From: Acidobacteriota bacterium | GTDB lineage: Bacteria; Acidobacteriota; Terriglobia; Bryobacterales; Bryobacteraceae | Direction: 5' to 3' | NCBI GenBank assembly: GCA_026394015.1 | Contig: JAPKZA010000283.1 | Location: forward strand, 1 to 45,448 | DNA length: 45,448 nt | Part shown: piece after piece, positions 7,397-12,056 of the stretch | How positions within the stretch are numbered: the stretch's first letter is position 1 | Layout of the letters: each line of letters opens with the position of its first letter | Notes under the pieces: model-generated | Databases searched by the model: none | Told to the model about the DNA's origin: nothing | The model's input: the letters and a program-made list of their open reading frames with translations, nothing else | Position numbers and translations under genes: made by a program

Positions 7397-8332
7397 TCAA
7401 ACCTGAATGCGCGAAATCCGAGGACGGAACACTTTGTCGAACCGTTCCTGAAGCGCAAGTAAATTCGCCACAATCTCGTCCCATCCATCTCGGTCGGAAA
7501 TGCCCTTCCCAAGTATCGACTTCCTCACGATCGAGGCGCGCTTCTCATCCAAGCGAAGCCATTCCAAGGGTTCGCCAATTTCTTGCTCTATCGCTTCTCT
7601 TTCAGCCCATAAGCGGTCAAAGATCGCTTTGTTCGCCTTCCCATTGCCCTTGTCACTATCGATGTACAACTCCGCGCGATGGGCCTTTCGTGCAACAAAC
7701 AACACCACGCTCACTCCAGCTTTGCCGATGCCGGTTCCAACCCAACTACTCGGACCTGGCGTTCGCCCATTGAAGGGGTTGAAAGGGGCGCGAGGAGCGT
7801 CGAAGAGTCTTCGCCAGAACTCGAGATTCGCCTCTTCAGAAGCCGCCATCGTCTTTTTCGATCCACCTGTTGCCTTGGCTTGGGCATCCGGCCCCGCGAC
7901 GATCTGAAACAACGGAGCAATCGGAGAATCGGCAATTCGAATCGCCTCCACCTTTACCAAATAGAAGGAAAGGTTGGCAGGAGTGAACTCGTTGAGCCAC
8001 TCGATCGCCCGTTGGTGCTCCGCTCGGGGCTCGGGCGAGATCCAGATGGCGGTCGACGCTTCCAGTCCAACGAGGTAAGTGATCACCTGGCCGAGGTGAC
8101 CGTGGTCGGTCCTATCCAGCTGATTCTCGATAATCACGCGGCGCCCTTCGGCATCCCGGCAGAGAAGGTCAACTAAAAAATCACCCACCCTCACTTCGCG
8201 GCCCTCTACCTCGAGCGTCAATCCGATTCGTTCGCTCAACGCCTCGATGTGCTGTTCAAGCCAGGGCGTAAAATTCCTGGCCTCGTCCGCGAAGGCCTGC
8301 CGTATCGGAATGGTTTCAATCCTGCTAAGCAT
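7397..8332 (-). CDS. DUF4268 protein with PD-(D/E)XK-like N-terminal segment
   Basis: A 311-residue protein. The N-terminal half has VGDFLVDLLCRD followed by VIIENQLDRTDHGHLGQVITYL, which reads as a nuclease-like core where the usual E-x-K is E-x-Q (ENQ), as in several degenerate or alternative PD-(D/E)XK families. The C-terminal half (WRRLF..., SVVLFVARKAHRAELYID..., DRDGWDEIV) fits DUF4268. Such proteins are scattered in accessory regions and their function is not established. Sampled lines of this gene are about 47-58% GC against 62-70% in the adjacent aldolase, consistent with transfer. Its start overlaps the end of the upstream aldolase by 8 bases, so it is read as the last gene of the kinase-aldolase run. 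Confidence 0.75.
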   Translation of the reverse strand: MLSRIETIPIRQAFADEARNFTPWLEQHIEALSERIGLTLEVEGREVRVGDFLVDLLCRDAEGRRVIIENQLDRTDHGHLGQVITYLVGLEASTAIWISPEPRAEHQRAIEWLNEFTPANLSFYLVKVEAIRIADSPIAPLFQIVAGPDAQAKATGGSKKTMAASEEANLEFWRRLFDAPRAPFNPFNGRTPGPSSWVGTGIGKAGVSVVLFVARKAHRAELYIDSDKGNGKANKAIFDRLWAEREAIEQEIGEPLEWLRLDEKRASIVRKSILGKGISDRDGWDEIVANLLALQERFDKVFRPRISRIQV

Positions 8333-9044
8333 CGAAGCTCCTCATCTGCTCCCGCGTCGCCCGCAACGCCTGCGCCAACAAATACACGTCCGCCGAATAG
8401 TACAACCGGTCGATACCCATCTCCCGCCACCGGTCCGCCGCCTCTCCGCTATTCGCAAACGCGCTCACCGCAATCCCCGCCGCATGCGCCGCGTGGATCA
8501 CCCGCTGCCCCGCCCCCAAAACCTCCGCATGCATCACGTCCCCCGGCCGCCCCAACGCCTGCGACAAATCGTACGGCCCAATGAACAACTCGTCCACACC
8601 CGCCAGCCCCGCAATCGCGTCCACTTCCGCCAGCGCCCCCGCCGTCTCAATCTGAATCACCACCCGCACCGGCCGCCGCAGATACTCTTCCATCGGCAAC
8701 AGCGAATACCGCGCCGCCCGCACGAACCCATTCAAACCCCGCCGCCCCGCCGGATGAAACCGGCTCGCCGCCACCACCCCGGCCGCCTCCGCCGCAGACT
8801 GTATCTGCGGCACTAACACCCCATCCGCCCCCGCGTCCAACGCGCTCTGAATCAACTCATTCCGCACCGCCGCCACCCGCACAATCGTCGGCACCCGCGC
8901 CGCCCGCAGCAAGTCCGGCAACTGCGCCGCTCCAACCGGTCCGTGCTCCGTATCGATCACCACAAAATCCCATCCCGCCAGGCTCGCCATCTCGACGACA
9001 TCCGCGCACGGAATCTCCAAAAAAATGCCAACCGGAATGCTCAT
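8325..9044 (-). CDS. HpcH/HpaI-family class II aldolase
   Basis: A 239-residue TIM-barrel aldolase. Family motifs appear in order: VIDTEHGP (near residues 30-37), a pyruvate-binding Arg, VLVPQIQSAAEA, RRGLNGF, VVIQIETAGAL (metal Glu) and LFIGPYDLSQALG (metal Asp). Relatives cleave or form 4-hydroxy-2-keto acids using pyruvate or related acceptors, e.g. 2-keto-3-deoxy-L-rhamnonate or 4-hydroxy-2-oxoheptanedioate aldolase; the exact substrate is not readable. It overlaps the upstream kinase-like gene by ATGA (9041-9044) and the downstream DUF4268 gene by 8 bases, so it sits in a compact minus-strand operon. Confidence 0.85.
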   Translation of the reverse strand: MSIPVGIFLEIPCADVVEMASLAGWDFVVIDTEHGPVGAAQLPDLLRAARVPTIVRVAAVRNELIQSALDAGADGVLVPQIQSAAEAAGVVAASRFHPAGRRGLNGFVRAARYSLLPMEEYLRRPVRVVIQIETAGALAEVDAIAGLAGVDELFIGPYDLSQALGRPGDVMHAEVLGAGQRVIHAAHAAGIAVSAFANSGEAADRWREMGIDRLYYSADVYLLAQALRATREQMRSFDA

Positions 9045-9766
9045 TTCGCCTTCTTCGCCGGACGCTTCCGCGGCGCAAAATGCCCCGCAATATGCCGCTG
9101 CAACTCCCGGTAAATCTGGTCCGCCGGCTTCGCCGCATCCACCGTCACAAACCCATACCGCATCGACATCCGATCCAGCGCCCGGATCACCCGCGCCTGA
9201 TACCGCACGAAGCTTTCATACATGTCCGGGCCGAACCGCATGTCCATCCCGCTCTCCCAAAAATCGAACTGCCCCCGACCCATCACCGTCCGCGAAATCA
9301 ACGTCGGCACCTCCGCCCGCAGGTAGTAGACCGCATGGGGAACCAACGCGAACCCCGCTACTTTCTCGAGCCACAAGCTATCCTCCCCCCGCGCAATCCC
9401 CCGCGCCATCAACGAAAAAATATACCGATCCGTGATCACCACAAACCCCGCCCGCAGCGCCGGAATAATCTCATTCTCCAGCCGATCCGCGAAGTCGGTC
9501 GCATAGAACAACGTCATCGTCACCGGCCCCAGCGTATGCCCCTCTTTCGCCTGCGCAATGCCTTTGCTCGCCAGCGCGCTCCGCCCCATGCCCGTATCCA
9601 GCACCGCATGGCCCTGTTGCTCCAGCCACGCCTTCAGCCGCGCCACCTGCGTACTCCGCCCCACCGCGTCCGGCCCCTCCACCACAATCAATTTCCCTTG
9701 CAGTTCCCCCACCTCCACCCCCGGCAGCGGTTCACTATAGAACTGTAGTGGTTGCTTCGAAAGCAT
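9041..9766 (-). CDS. Thymidylate-kinase-like P-loop protein with altered Walker A (Lys to Arg)
   Basis: A 241-residue thymidylate-kinase-fold protein. The Walker A region reads EGPDAVGRST (residues 30-39): the invariant lysine of GxGKST is Arg37, encoded by CGG. The TMK-type DRY motif is present (ITDRYIFSLMARG) as are PHAVYYLRAE and the GMDMRFGPDMYESF segment. It is a divergent paralogue of the adjacent gene, with matching ATDFADR, DR and GMD blocks. A Lys-to-Arg change normally weakens ATP turnover, so it may be a regulatory or heteromeric partner, or have altered phosphodonor use; this is inference. The first 20 residues are extra relative to its neighbour, and the 32-base overlap with the upstream gene hints that a later GTG could be the true start. 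The C-terminus is Lys/Arg-rich. Confidence 0.78.
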   Translation of the reverse strand: MLSKQPLQFYSEPLPGVEVGELQGKLIVVEGPDAVGRSTQVARLKAWLEQQGHAVLDTGMGRSALASKGIAQAKEGHTLGPVTMTLFYATDFADRLENEIIPALRAGFVVITDRYIFSLMARGIARGEDSLWLEKVAGFALVPHAVYYLRAEVPTLISRTVMGRGQFDFWESGMDMRFGPDMYESFVRYQARVIRALDRMSMRYGFVTVDAAKPADQIYRELQRHIAGHFAPRKRPAKKAK

Positions 9767-10466
9767 GCGTCGTCCCCTCCTGATTTAAAATCTGCCCGCT
9801 CGCCACCGCGTCGCCGAGCCGTTCCATCACGATCCGCCGCATCTGCGCCTGCTGCTCTTCAATCGACCCCGAAGCGTCAATAATGTGAAACCCCATCTCC
9901 TCGGCCATGGCATCGTACTGTTCCAAAATCCGCCCTTGAAAAATCCGAAACGACTCTTCTTCCCGCTTCGCCAAGTTCAAATCCATCCCGGCCTCATAAT
10001 ACTTAATCGAATCCCGACCCCCCAGAATCCGACCCAACGCCACCTCCAGCGGCACCCGAAAGTAAAACGCCAAATTCGGCTGAATCGCAAACCGGTACAG
10101 GTTCCGCACCCACCGCGGCGAAACCCCCCGCACCACGTCGCGCGCAAACGCCGTATACGCAAACCGATCCGCGCATACAATCGCCCCCGCCTTCAACAAC
10201 GGAATAATGTATCGCTCCTGCCGATCCGCAAAGTCCGTCGCATGGATCAGGCTGAACGTCGTCGGCGTGAACATCATCTTCTTCTTCCCCCGCCGCGTCG
10301 TTTCGCTCACGAGCGGCGACGAGTTCCATTCGCTAAACGCCACCGCCAAGCCCTGCGAACGAAGCCACTGCGCCAGCAGCGCCAACTGCGTGGACTTCCC
10401 GGAACCATCGATCCCCTCGACGATGATTAACTTGCCTTTGAAACGATTCGGAGTGAGTTGAGTCAT
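9735..10466 (-). CDS. Thymidylate-kinase-like P-loop nucleotide kinase
   Basis: A 243-residue kinase with an intact Walker A (EGIDGSGKST, Lys24), a DRF motif (VCADRFAYTAFARD) in the position of the TMK DRY/DRH loop, PNLAFYFRVPLEVAL, and a YYEAGMDLNLAKREEESF block shared with the downstream paralogue. It is longer than typical Tmk (about 210) and the LID region is atypical, so it may be a specialised kinase rather than the housekeeping dTMP kinase. Polyphosphate kinase 2 shares this fold and a Ppx/GppA gene lies divergently 60 bases away, making a polyphosphate link conceivable but unproven. It is the first gene of the minus-strand run; a 10-base palindrome CGAAATTTCG lies immediately upstream of its ATG (10467-10476). 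Confidence 0.8.
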   Translation of the reverse strand: MTQLTPNRFKGKLIIVEGIDGSGKSTQLALLAQWLRSQGLAVAFSEWNSSPLVSETTRRGKKKMMFTPTTFSLIHATDFADRQERYIIPLLKAGAIVCADRFAYTAFARDVVRGVSPRWVRNLYRFAIQPNLAFYFRVPLEVALGRILGGRDSIKYYEAGMDLNLAKREEESFRIFQGRILEQYDAMAEEMGFHIIDASGSIEEQQAQMRRIVMERLGDAVASGQILNQEGTTHAFEATTTVL

Positions 10467-10526
10467 CGAAATTTCGCTTCGACAAGTATAGCGAGCCGCT
10501 CTATCGCACTATGATGGAGGAACAGA

Positions 10527-12056
10527 ATGCCTCGCTACGCCGCCGTCGATATCGGCAGTAACTCCACCCGTCTCGCCGTCGCCGAAGTCAACCCCGGCGA
10601 CCCCTGGAAAATGTTGGCCACGGACCGCGAAGTCACCCGCCTCGGCACCAGCGTCTTCACCGAAGGTGCCATCTCCAAGACAGCCATGGAGCTGCTGATC
10701 CGAACCCTCTCCCGCTTCGCGACCACCTACCACCGCCTCGGCGCCACCAGCGTCCGCGTCGTCGCCACCAGCGCCGTCCGCGACGCCCGCAATCAGGAAA
10801 ATTTCATCTATCGCGCCAGCCAAACCATCGGCGCCCCCGTCGAAATCATCTCCGGCCTCGAAGAAGCCCGCCTCATCCACGCCGGCGTCCAAGCCAGCTG
10901 GCCCCATCCCGATGGCCGCCTCATGATCATCGACATCGGCGGCGGCAGCGCCGAAGTCATCGTCTCCGCCGACGGCAAACTCGAAAGCGCCATCTCCCGC
11001 CCCCTCGGCGCCGTTCGCTTGAAAGAGATGTTCCTCCTCACCGATCCGCCCGTCCTCGGGCAACTCGAACGGATGCACGCCTTCGTCAACGAAAAACTCG
11101 CCGCCACTTTAAAACGAACCGGCCGCGGTCCCTTCGACCGCGTCATCGCCACCTCCTCCACCGCCGCCGCCGTCATCAGCGCCCTTAACAAAGTCCCGCG
11201 CAAAGATCGCGACCTCGCCGACCGCCTCCGCGCCTCCACCGCCGACATCGGCGAACTCGAAAACTTCCTCGCCAAAAGCACCCTTGCCGCCCGCCGCAAG
11301 GTCCCCGGCATCGGCCCCCAACGCGCCGAAATCATCGTCGCCGGCATCAGCGTCCTCCATCGTATTCTCCGCGCCTACGGCCAAACCGAAGTCTTCTACT
11401 CCACCGCCGGCGTCCGCGATGGCATCATCGCCGACCTCGCCGAACGCCGCAGCGGCAGCGACCTCTCCCGCCTCAGTAAGGAACAGCGCCAGGTCGTCGA
11501 AGCCATGGCCCGCCGCTTCGGCGTCGACGTCAAACACGCCCGCCAAACCGCCCATCTCGCCAACACCCTCTTCGTCAGCCTCCATCCCCTCCACCAACTC
11601 CCCGCCTCCGCTGGCAAACTCCTCGAAGCCGCCGCCTACCTCGCCGACACCGGCCACTACGTCAGCGACATGGCCCACCACAAACACAGCTTCTACCTCG
11701 TCGCCAACAGCGACCTCCCCGCTTTCACCACCGAAGAACGGCTCTTGATCGCCCTCCTCTGCCGCTTCCATCGCAAGTCCATGCCCCAGGCCCGCCACGC
11801 CTTCTTCCAGGACGTCACCGCCAGCGTCAAAAAGCTCGTCCTCTGGCTCGTTCCCATCCTCCGCCTCGCCGACGGCCTCGACCGCAGCCACGACCAACGC
11901 GTCGAATCCGCCAAGGTGGAAATCACCGACAAAGTCGTCACCATCGTCCTCGAAAGCGAAATCGACATGGACCTCGAACTCTGGGCCGGCGAACGAGTCG
12001 CCGAAGTCTTTCAGCAAATTTACGGTCGCCAGTTGGCGCTGCGCCAAGCTTCGTAG
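10527..12056 (+). CDS. Ppx/GppA phosphatase family protein with C-terminal HD domain
   Basis: A 509-residue protein. Residues 1-300 form the actin-like Ppx/GppA fold: phosphate-1 loop VDIGSNSTRLAV near residues 6-17 and phosphate-2 loop IIDIGGGSAEV near residue 133. Residues from about 320 form an HD-type domain (HARQTAHLANTLF, LADTGHYVSDMAHHKHSFYL) as in exopolyphosphatases and pppGpp phosphohydrolases. It should release phosphate from polyphosphate or the gamma phosphate of pppGpp; which one cannot be told from sequence. A strong Shine-Dalgarno GGAGG lies 7 bases before the ATG. It is divergent from the two kinase-like genes, and tRNA-Gln follows 21 bases after its stop. Confidence 0.9.
   Translation: MPRYAAVDIGSNSTRLAVAEVNPGDPWKMLATDREVTRLGTSVFTEGAISKTAMELLIRTLSRFATTYHRLGATSVRVVATSAVRDARNQENFIYRASQTIGAPVEIISGLEEARLIHAGVQASWPHPDGRLMIIDIGGGSAEVIVSADGKLESAISRPLGAVRLKEMFLLTDPPVLGQLERMHAFVNEKLAATLKRTGRGPFDRVIATSSTAAAVISALNKVPRKDRDLADRLRASTADIGELENFLAKSTLAARRKVPGIGPQRAEIIVAGISVLHRILRAYGQTEVFYSTAGVRDGIIADLAERRSGSDLSRLSKEQRQVVEAMARRFGVDVKHARQTAHLANTLFVSLHPLHQLPASAGKLLEAAAYLADTGHYVSDMAHHKHSFYLVANSDLPAFTTEERLLIALLCRFHRKSMPQARHAFFQDVTASVKKLVLWLVPILRLADGLDRSHDQRVESAKVEITDKVVTIVLESEIDMDLELWAGERVAEVFQQIYGRQLALRQAS

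Follow-up and report, generated by a model that had tools for sequence, protein, structure and literature searches.

Why would a bacterium keep two adjacent genes for thymidylate kinase (Tmk)-like proteins, one of them with an arginine in place of the Walker A lysine, beside a gene for a Ppx/GppA-type phosphatase? The question is raised by a contig of an Acidobacteriota bacterium of the Bryobacteraceae (GCA_026394015.1, contig JAPKZA010000283.1, positions 1 to 45,448), whose whole length of 45,448 nucleotides (nt) is here called the window. We refer to the kinase-like gene with the intact Walker A motif as B, and to its paralogue with the arginine as A. An earlier note on this DNA had suggested that A and B form a kinase and pseudokinase pair that handles nucleotides and polyphosphate (polyP), or guanosine tetra- and pentaphosphate, (p)ppGpp. 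From comparative sequence analysis, we think it likely that the pair is a bacterial polyP kinase (PPK) of the family-3 type (PPK3-like), in which B would be the catalytic subunit and A a non-catalytic partner within a heteromer.

The gene pair and its P-loops

Gene B is located at 9735..10466 on the minus strand and encodes a protein of 243 amino acids (aa) with the Walker A sequence GIDGSGKST (K24), while gene A, at 9041..9766 on the same strand, encodes a protein of 241 aa with the sequence GPDAVGRST (R37). The two Tmk-like genes are therefore adjacent, and the Walker A lysine is exchanged for arginine in one of them, both as the earlier note had read them; the codons are AAG in B and CGG in A. 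The stop of B and the start of A overlap by 32 nt (9735..9766, minus strand), an arrangement that would favor translational coupling. The two proteins are 36% identical. In the Pfam search at E up to 0.001, PF02223 (Thymidylate_kin) was the sole match of each protein (79.6 bits for B and 62.8 bits for A, cut-off 27), and neither PF03976 (PPK2) nor the PPK1-type domains (PF02503/PLD-type) matched A or B. For the NCBIfam model TIGR00041 of deoxythymidine monophosphate (dTMP) kinase (cut-off 83.25), B scored above the cut-off (88.3) and A below it (62.1). The unusual block E(S/A)GMD...ESF, which had been noticed in both proteins, is indeed common to A and B and conserved within each family, and it is not found in the housekeeping Tmk of the same genome (L001 sequence). 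The AlphaFold2 (AF2) models of both proteins were confident, with a predicted local distance difference test score (pLDDT) of 92.5 for A and 87.1 for B.

The collection search returned 484 stretches confirmed as encoding an A relative, and the best 80 of the 484 were retained; in these, the P-loop of the A relative reads GR[ST] in 80 of 80. Proteins were assigned to A or B by score, and 100 bits were required in the second round. The alignments A1 (for A) and A2 (for B) comprised 47 of 81 and 21 of 77 rows, respectively, after an identity cut of 80% and exclusion of open reading frames (ORFs) of more than 300 aa. In a larger alignment of 142 rows, in which the window occurs twice (L125) and some genomes also occur twice (for example, L085/L154 and L102/L155), position 37 of A is arginine in 141 rows and a gap in one (L180, where the called ORF begins after the P-loop). 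Position 24 of B is lysine in 140 rows, leucine in one and a gap in one. The leucine belongs to L048, where the match is limited to the C-terminal part of B and is apparently frameshifted, and the gap belongs to L172, where B is cut by the contig end. All six arginine codons are used at position 37 of A (140 readable of the 141). Because arginine is written with all six codons, it is the residue itself that is kept at this position, and its conservation across the relatives excludes chance or a sequencing error, the latter having been raised as a way in which the earlier proposal could fail.

Pairing, neighborhood and PPK1

When an adjacent pair is defined as two ORFs of more than 150 aa separated by less than 1500 nt, 141 of 146 loci qualify (the others being L063, L111, L112, L113 and L144). 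B is the first gene and A the second in each of these 141 pairs, the two always sharing a strand; in 135 of them the genes overlap or are separated by no more than 20 nt, with the start of A taken as the first possible start codon. In two genomes, G351 (L112, L184) and G350 (L111, L187), A and B are unlinked, with B on another contig; these are metagenome-assembled genomes (MAGs) labelled Melainabacteria and Poribacteria.

The presence of A was called at E <1e-50 among the 61 relatives, at 250 bits or more among Acidobacteriota, and at 270 bits or more in a Chloroflexota sample. A-type matches were found in 41 of 61 relatives, in 34 of 247 Acidobacteriota (13 family codes; 33 genomes at the threshold plus G188, in which A is cut by a contig end), in 35 of 201 genomes of the Chloroflexota sample, and in 3 of 148 genomes of the phylum of L073 (NCBI label Myxococcota). 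These counts include the centre genomes G000, G324 and G312, which were picked for having the pair. A B-type match accompanies A in these samples except in G297, being partial in G033 and split over two contigs in G540. Pair relatives also occur on contigs titled Armatimonadota, Ignavibacteriota, Bacteroidota, Planctomycetota, Melainabacteria and Poribacteria. Such MAG labels are unreliable, since L102, labelled Proteobacteria, falls in the Chloroflexota sample; a reliable assignment is that of the cultured Thermanaerothrix daxensis (L085), which carries the pair. The contig L066, titled Acidimicrobiia, has Ppx and CHAD genes near a gene whose product shares 72% identity with the window's A, and this is probably a misbinned or misnamed MAG. 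The pair occurs twice in one genome, G152 (C5, C51).

The neighborhood of the pair was surveyed in 82 long loci with an adjacent pair (76 of L034-L113 plus L118-L123), many of which end at contig edges. A Ppx/GppA-type gene is present in 48 of the 82 loci and a CHAD gene in 48, and either or both in 68; among loci of at least 10 kb, 45 of 52 have a Ppx-type or CHAD gene. Genes for SixA-like proteins (15 loci), PstB-like ABC ATPases (15) and PhoU (11) also occur. Representatives were confirmed by Pfam, the PstB-like one as an ABC transporter only, and some weak PstB-like matches may represent ABC transporters of other kinds. Certain Ppx-type matches consist of the HD-like domain III alone, as in L085, where the gene order is PstB, PhoU, B, A, CHAD and Ppx domain III. 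Nine loci labelled Chloroflexota have PhoU in nine, CHAD in nine, PstB-like in eight and Ppx-type in six. In addition, at two loci of the Chloroflexota sample (L196:3591-4910 and L197:5627-6940), the partner, with a broken P-loop, is fused to an HD-like Ppx/GppA domain III. CHAD domains bind polyP (PMC6537752).

Co-occurrence with ppx and CHAD genes, for which the earlier note had proposed to search, was found in many lineages; the association with PPK1 (PF02503) is negative, PPK1 being rarer in genomes with the pair. Among the 61 relatives, PPK1 is present in 17, namely in 1 of the 41 genomes that have the pair and in 16 of the 20 that lack it (Fisher p 4e-10, or p 4e-4 when counted by genus, 1 of 11 against 16 of 20). 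The corresponding numbers are 3 of 34 against 132 of 213 in the Acidobacteriota sample (p 3e-9) and 8 of 35 against 84 of 166 in the Chloroflexota sample (p 0.003), all of these Fisher tests ignoring relatedness. The window's own genome has no PF02503 match. PPK2 is present in 53 of the 61 relatives, the window's genome among them.

In the window, the Ppx/GppA phosphatase gene (10527..12056, plus strand) starts 60 nt from B and is divergent from it, at the distance given in the earlier note. Its product has an HD-like domain III (PF02541, 194 bits; PF21447, 101 bits), and the intergenic region (10467..10526, 60 nt) would serve as a shared promoter region. The top NCBIfam match of this phosphatase is exo_poly_only (TIGR03706) with 262 bits, under its cut-off of 307, followed by PRK10854 (exopolyphosphatase, 172.9) and PRK11031 (GppA, 162.2). 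On the other side, a gene for an HpcH/HpaI-type aldolase (8325..9044, minus strand; PF03328, 120 bits) overlaps the stop of A by 4 nt. Related ORFs are clustered in 14 of 80 loci, every one from Acidobacteriota, and the aldolase gene is probably incidental.

Relation to Tmk, ST1543 and a second lineage

A and B share their fold and PF02223 with housekeeping Tmk. They differ from it in forming a separate lineage, in being nearly always paired, in their polyP neighborhood, and in having an ordinary tmk present besides: the thymidylate kinase of the window's genome is encoded on a different contig (C19) and scores 158 bits against PF02223. The existence of a canonical tmk elsewhere, which the earlier note had proposed to look for, thus rules out the pair as the only tmk of the genome.

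A tree of 92 rows was built from 34 hand-picked loci together with rows for a second group of B-like proteins, Tmk (10 rows) and ST1543 of Sulfolobus tokodaii; its support was assessed by the Shimodaira-Hasegawa-like approximate likelihood ratio test (SH-aLRT) only, and some branches are long. In this tree A (bar one row on a long branch), B and housekeeping Tmk form separate groups, the A/B lineage stands apart from housekeeping Tmk with an SH-aLRT of 99, and ST1543 and the second group fall on the B side with an SH-aLRT of 88. The A and B subtrees largely agree when judged by eye. On this phylogeny, the split between A and B predates the spread across phyla.

ST1543 (PDB 2plr, 4nzy, 4rzx and 5h70, deposited as dTMP kinase) is the closest solved structure for both A and B, far ahead of ordinary Tmk by Foldseek E-value. 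B is about 48% and A about 32% identical to it, and ST1543 is the top PDB match of B with 201 bits, the runner-up having 51. Its P-loop is canonical, of the B type and unlike that of A, and there is no A-type chain among the PDB matches listed. ST1543 would itself be an orthologue of PPK3.

The second group belongs to ten Acidobacteriota loci (L114-L117, L199-L202, L204 and L206) with a B-like kinase carrying GPDGSGKTTQ or a similar P-loop. In nine of the ten, the kinase is followed by a partner without a P-loop or DRY; in L199, no partner was found in about 4 kb downstream of the kinase. No Ppx or CHAD match was found within the 5-13.5 kb stretches of these loci. Their neighbors are PLD-like genes in seven of ten, porin O/P in six, CotH in six and DUF4956 in three. 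PPK1 is present in eight of the ten genomes and absent from two, G191 and G176. G176 has a GR-type pair as well as a second-lineage pair (C218, C37).

Weighing the readings of the pair

The archaeal enzyme to which we compare the pair, that of Hofmann from Sulfolobus acidocaldarius, is reportedly a Tmk-family heteromer of a catalytic and a non-catalytic subunit, with its gene next to ppx. A polyP-synthesizing enzyme of Crenarchaeota is the subject of Hofmann 2024 (bioRxiv), whose title names an archaeal family 3 polyphosphate kinase, as cited in PMC11677633, and PMC13318637 refers to the 2026 version (J Biol Chem 302:111283) as a distinct PPK-type enzyme. Many of the loci described here resemble the CHAD loci of Sulfolobales, which contain SixA, PPX and 'dTMP kinase' genes according to PMC10892726, and the likeness extends to the grouping of S. 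tokodaii ST1543 with B. The window and the relatives found here are bacterial, however, and it is from them that we document the fixed arginine of the partner and the pair's alternation with PPK1. Because of its relation to ST1543 and the ppx, CHAD and SixA genes found around it in the wider set of loci (in the window, only ppx), the pair is probably a bacterial member of the family-3 kind. In our proposal, B would act as a P-loop kinase that transfers phosphate from ATP to the growing polyP chain, while A, nearly always co-inherited, would complete, activate or position the active heteromer and perhaps bind a nucleotide or the polyP chain; degradation of the polymer would be the task of the divergently encoded Ppx/GppA protein. 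In the window's genome, where the search for PPK1 gave no match, most of the ATP-driven polyP synthesis would fall to the pair, and PPK2 would use polyP.

That A is non-catalytic is suggested by the arginine fixed at the lysine position together with the loss or disruption of the P-loop in related partners. The P-loops of these partners read GPDIGPRPR or GPEGAGRRE, or are gone (L114-L117, L200-L202, L204 and L206, read by eye), while their B partners retain GK. The exchange of lysine for arginine alone was rejected as proof of inactivity, since there are Tmk-like proteins with threonine in place of the Walker A lysine (GSGTTT and GAGTTT; L210:431-1111 and L211:573-1214), and the two genomes that encode them, both in the Chloroflexota sample, have no other A1-profile match.

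A precedent for the combination of an inactive with an active unit is provided by class II PPK2 (P. aeruginosa PPK2C/PA3455), a P-loop kinase of Tmk-like fold in which, according to PMC8776046, inactive and active PPK2 domains reside in one chain. A and B differ from it in lacking PF03976 and in being separate proteins, and PPK2 genes coexist with the pair. The name PPK3 had earlier been given to a class I PPK2 of Ruegeria, as the same paper states. Among the results listed by our literature searches there was no paper on the bacterial pair; the two Hofmann reports were outside those searches, and absence is not established by them.

Several observations weigh against a heteromeric polyP synthase with an inactive A. 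The GSGTTT and GAGTTT proteins indicate that the P-loop lysine may be replaceable, and A retains invariant residues in all 142 rows, among them DRY, the arginines R122, R126 and R159, and D175. Mean-field direct-coupling analysis of the 142 A-B rows (effective number of sequences 88) was uninformative, with no enrichment at the helices, located on the AF2 models, which we take to be the Tmk dimer interface. Pairing is near-universal and not absolute: the draft genome G297 has A but yielded no B, including in the 0.95 kb that precede A in L144, and in the draft genomes G352 and G307 no B was found, A being at a contig start. Neither a Ppx-type nor a CHAD gene is present within the fetched stretch in 14 of the 82 long loci, and CHAD gave no match in the genome of the window. 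Finally, PPK1 and the pair occur together in the 8 Chloroflexota-sample genomes counted above, and PPK1 is present in 13 of 46 pair genomes reached through the loci, so that the exclusion of PPK1 is a tendency and not a rule.

The invariance of DRY and the other residues, the strict conservation of R37 without drift, and the GSGTTT proteins would also fit A as a second active kinase, with Arg37 in the role of the lysine and two specificities in the pair, for example a chain initiator and an elongator. We regard this as very unlikely, as the P-loops of related partners are degenerate or gone while their B partners retain GK. The polyP neighborhood would equally fit a pair that consumes the polymer, namely a polyP-dependent nucleotide kinase converting nucleoside mono- or diphosphates to di- or triphosphates, with A as a regulatory subunit. 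The Tmk-like nucleotide-kinase fold, the nearness of B to ST1543 (dTMP kinase by its PDB deposit), and the Tmk-type fold of PPK2 (PMC8776046) all favor such an enzyme; still, it is unlikely, for PPK2 is already present in most of the relatives and in the window's genome, and it is PPK1, the synthase, with which the pair alternates.

B passes the TIGR00041 cut-off, all 47 A rows and all 21 B rows match this model at E up to 0.001 (a count of matches and not of rows passing the cut-off), and ST1543 was deposited as dTMP kinase. These points would be explained by an accessory kinase for dTMP or another nucleoside monophosphate whose pseudo-subunit is structural and whose location near polyP genes reflects phosphate-regulon co-regulation only. 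Such a role is very unlikely, however, given the separate tmk of the genome, and the Ppx/CHAD linkage, the fusion of the partner to domain III and the PPK1 association would not be expected from it. As for (p)ppGpp or other guanosine nucleotides, on which the pair might act with a GppA-type phosphatase, the neighbor does belong to the Ppx/GppA family, yet its top NCBIfam match is exo_poly_only ahead of GppA, and the CHAD and phosphate-uptake neighbors point to polyP; we consider this reading extremely improbable. Of the earlier suggestion of a kinase and pseudokinase acting on polyP or (p)ppGpp, the polyP part has thus gained from the Ppx/GppA and CHAD context, the domain III fusion and the anti-association with PPK1, while the (p)ppGpp part has found no specific support.

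Taking the proposed family-3-type polyP kinase further, we put forward more tentatively, as quite possible and somewhat doubtful, that the pair represents a third class of bacterial polyP synthase in Acidobacteriota, Chloroflexota and others, which has been scored as 'dTMP kinase' and replaces PPK1, and that it would work as a kinase/pseudokinase heteromer whose fixed P-loop arginine perhaps grips polyP. In the second Acidobacteriota set, the P-loop of the partner has been lost, and the neighbors are often PLD-like, porin O/P or CotH genes; these pairs may, as part of this proposal, constitute a phosphate-polymer system of their own. If the family-3 reading is right, many bacterial genes scored as thymidylate kinases would be polyP synthases, which would explain how polyP could be made in many Acidobacteriota and Chloroflexota without PPK1, and the archaeal family-3 enzyme would be linked to a broad bacterial reservoir. 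The pair also poses a pseudokinase problem, namely the reason for which a P-loop lysine has been fixed as arginine over such distances.

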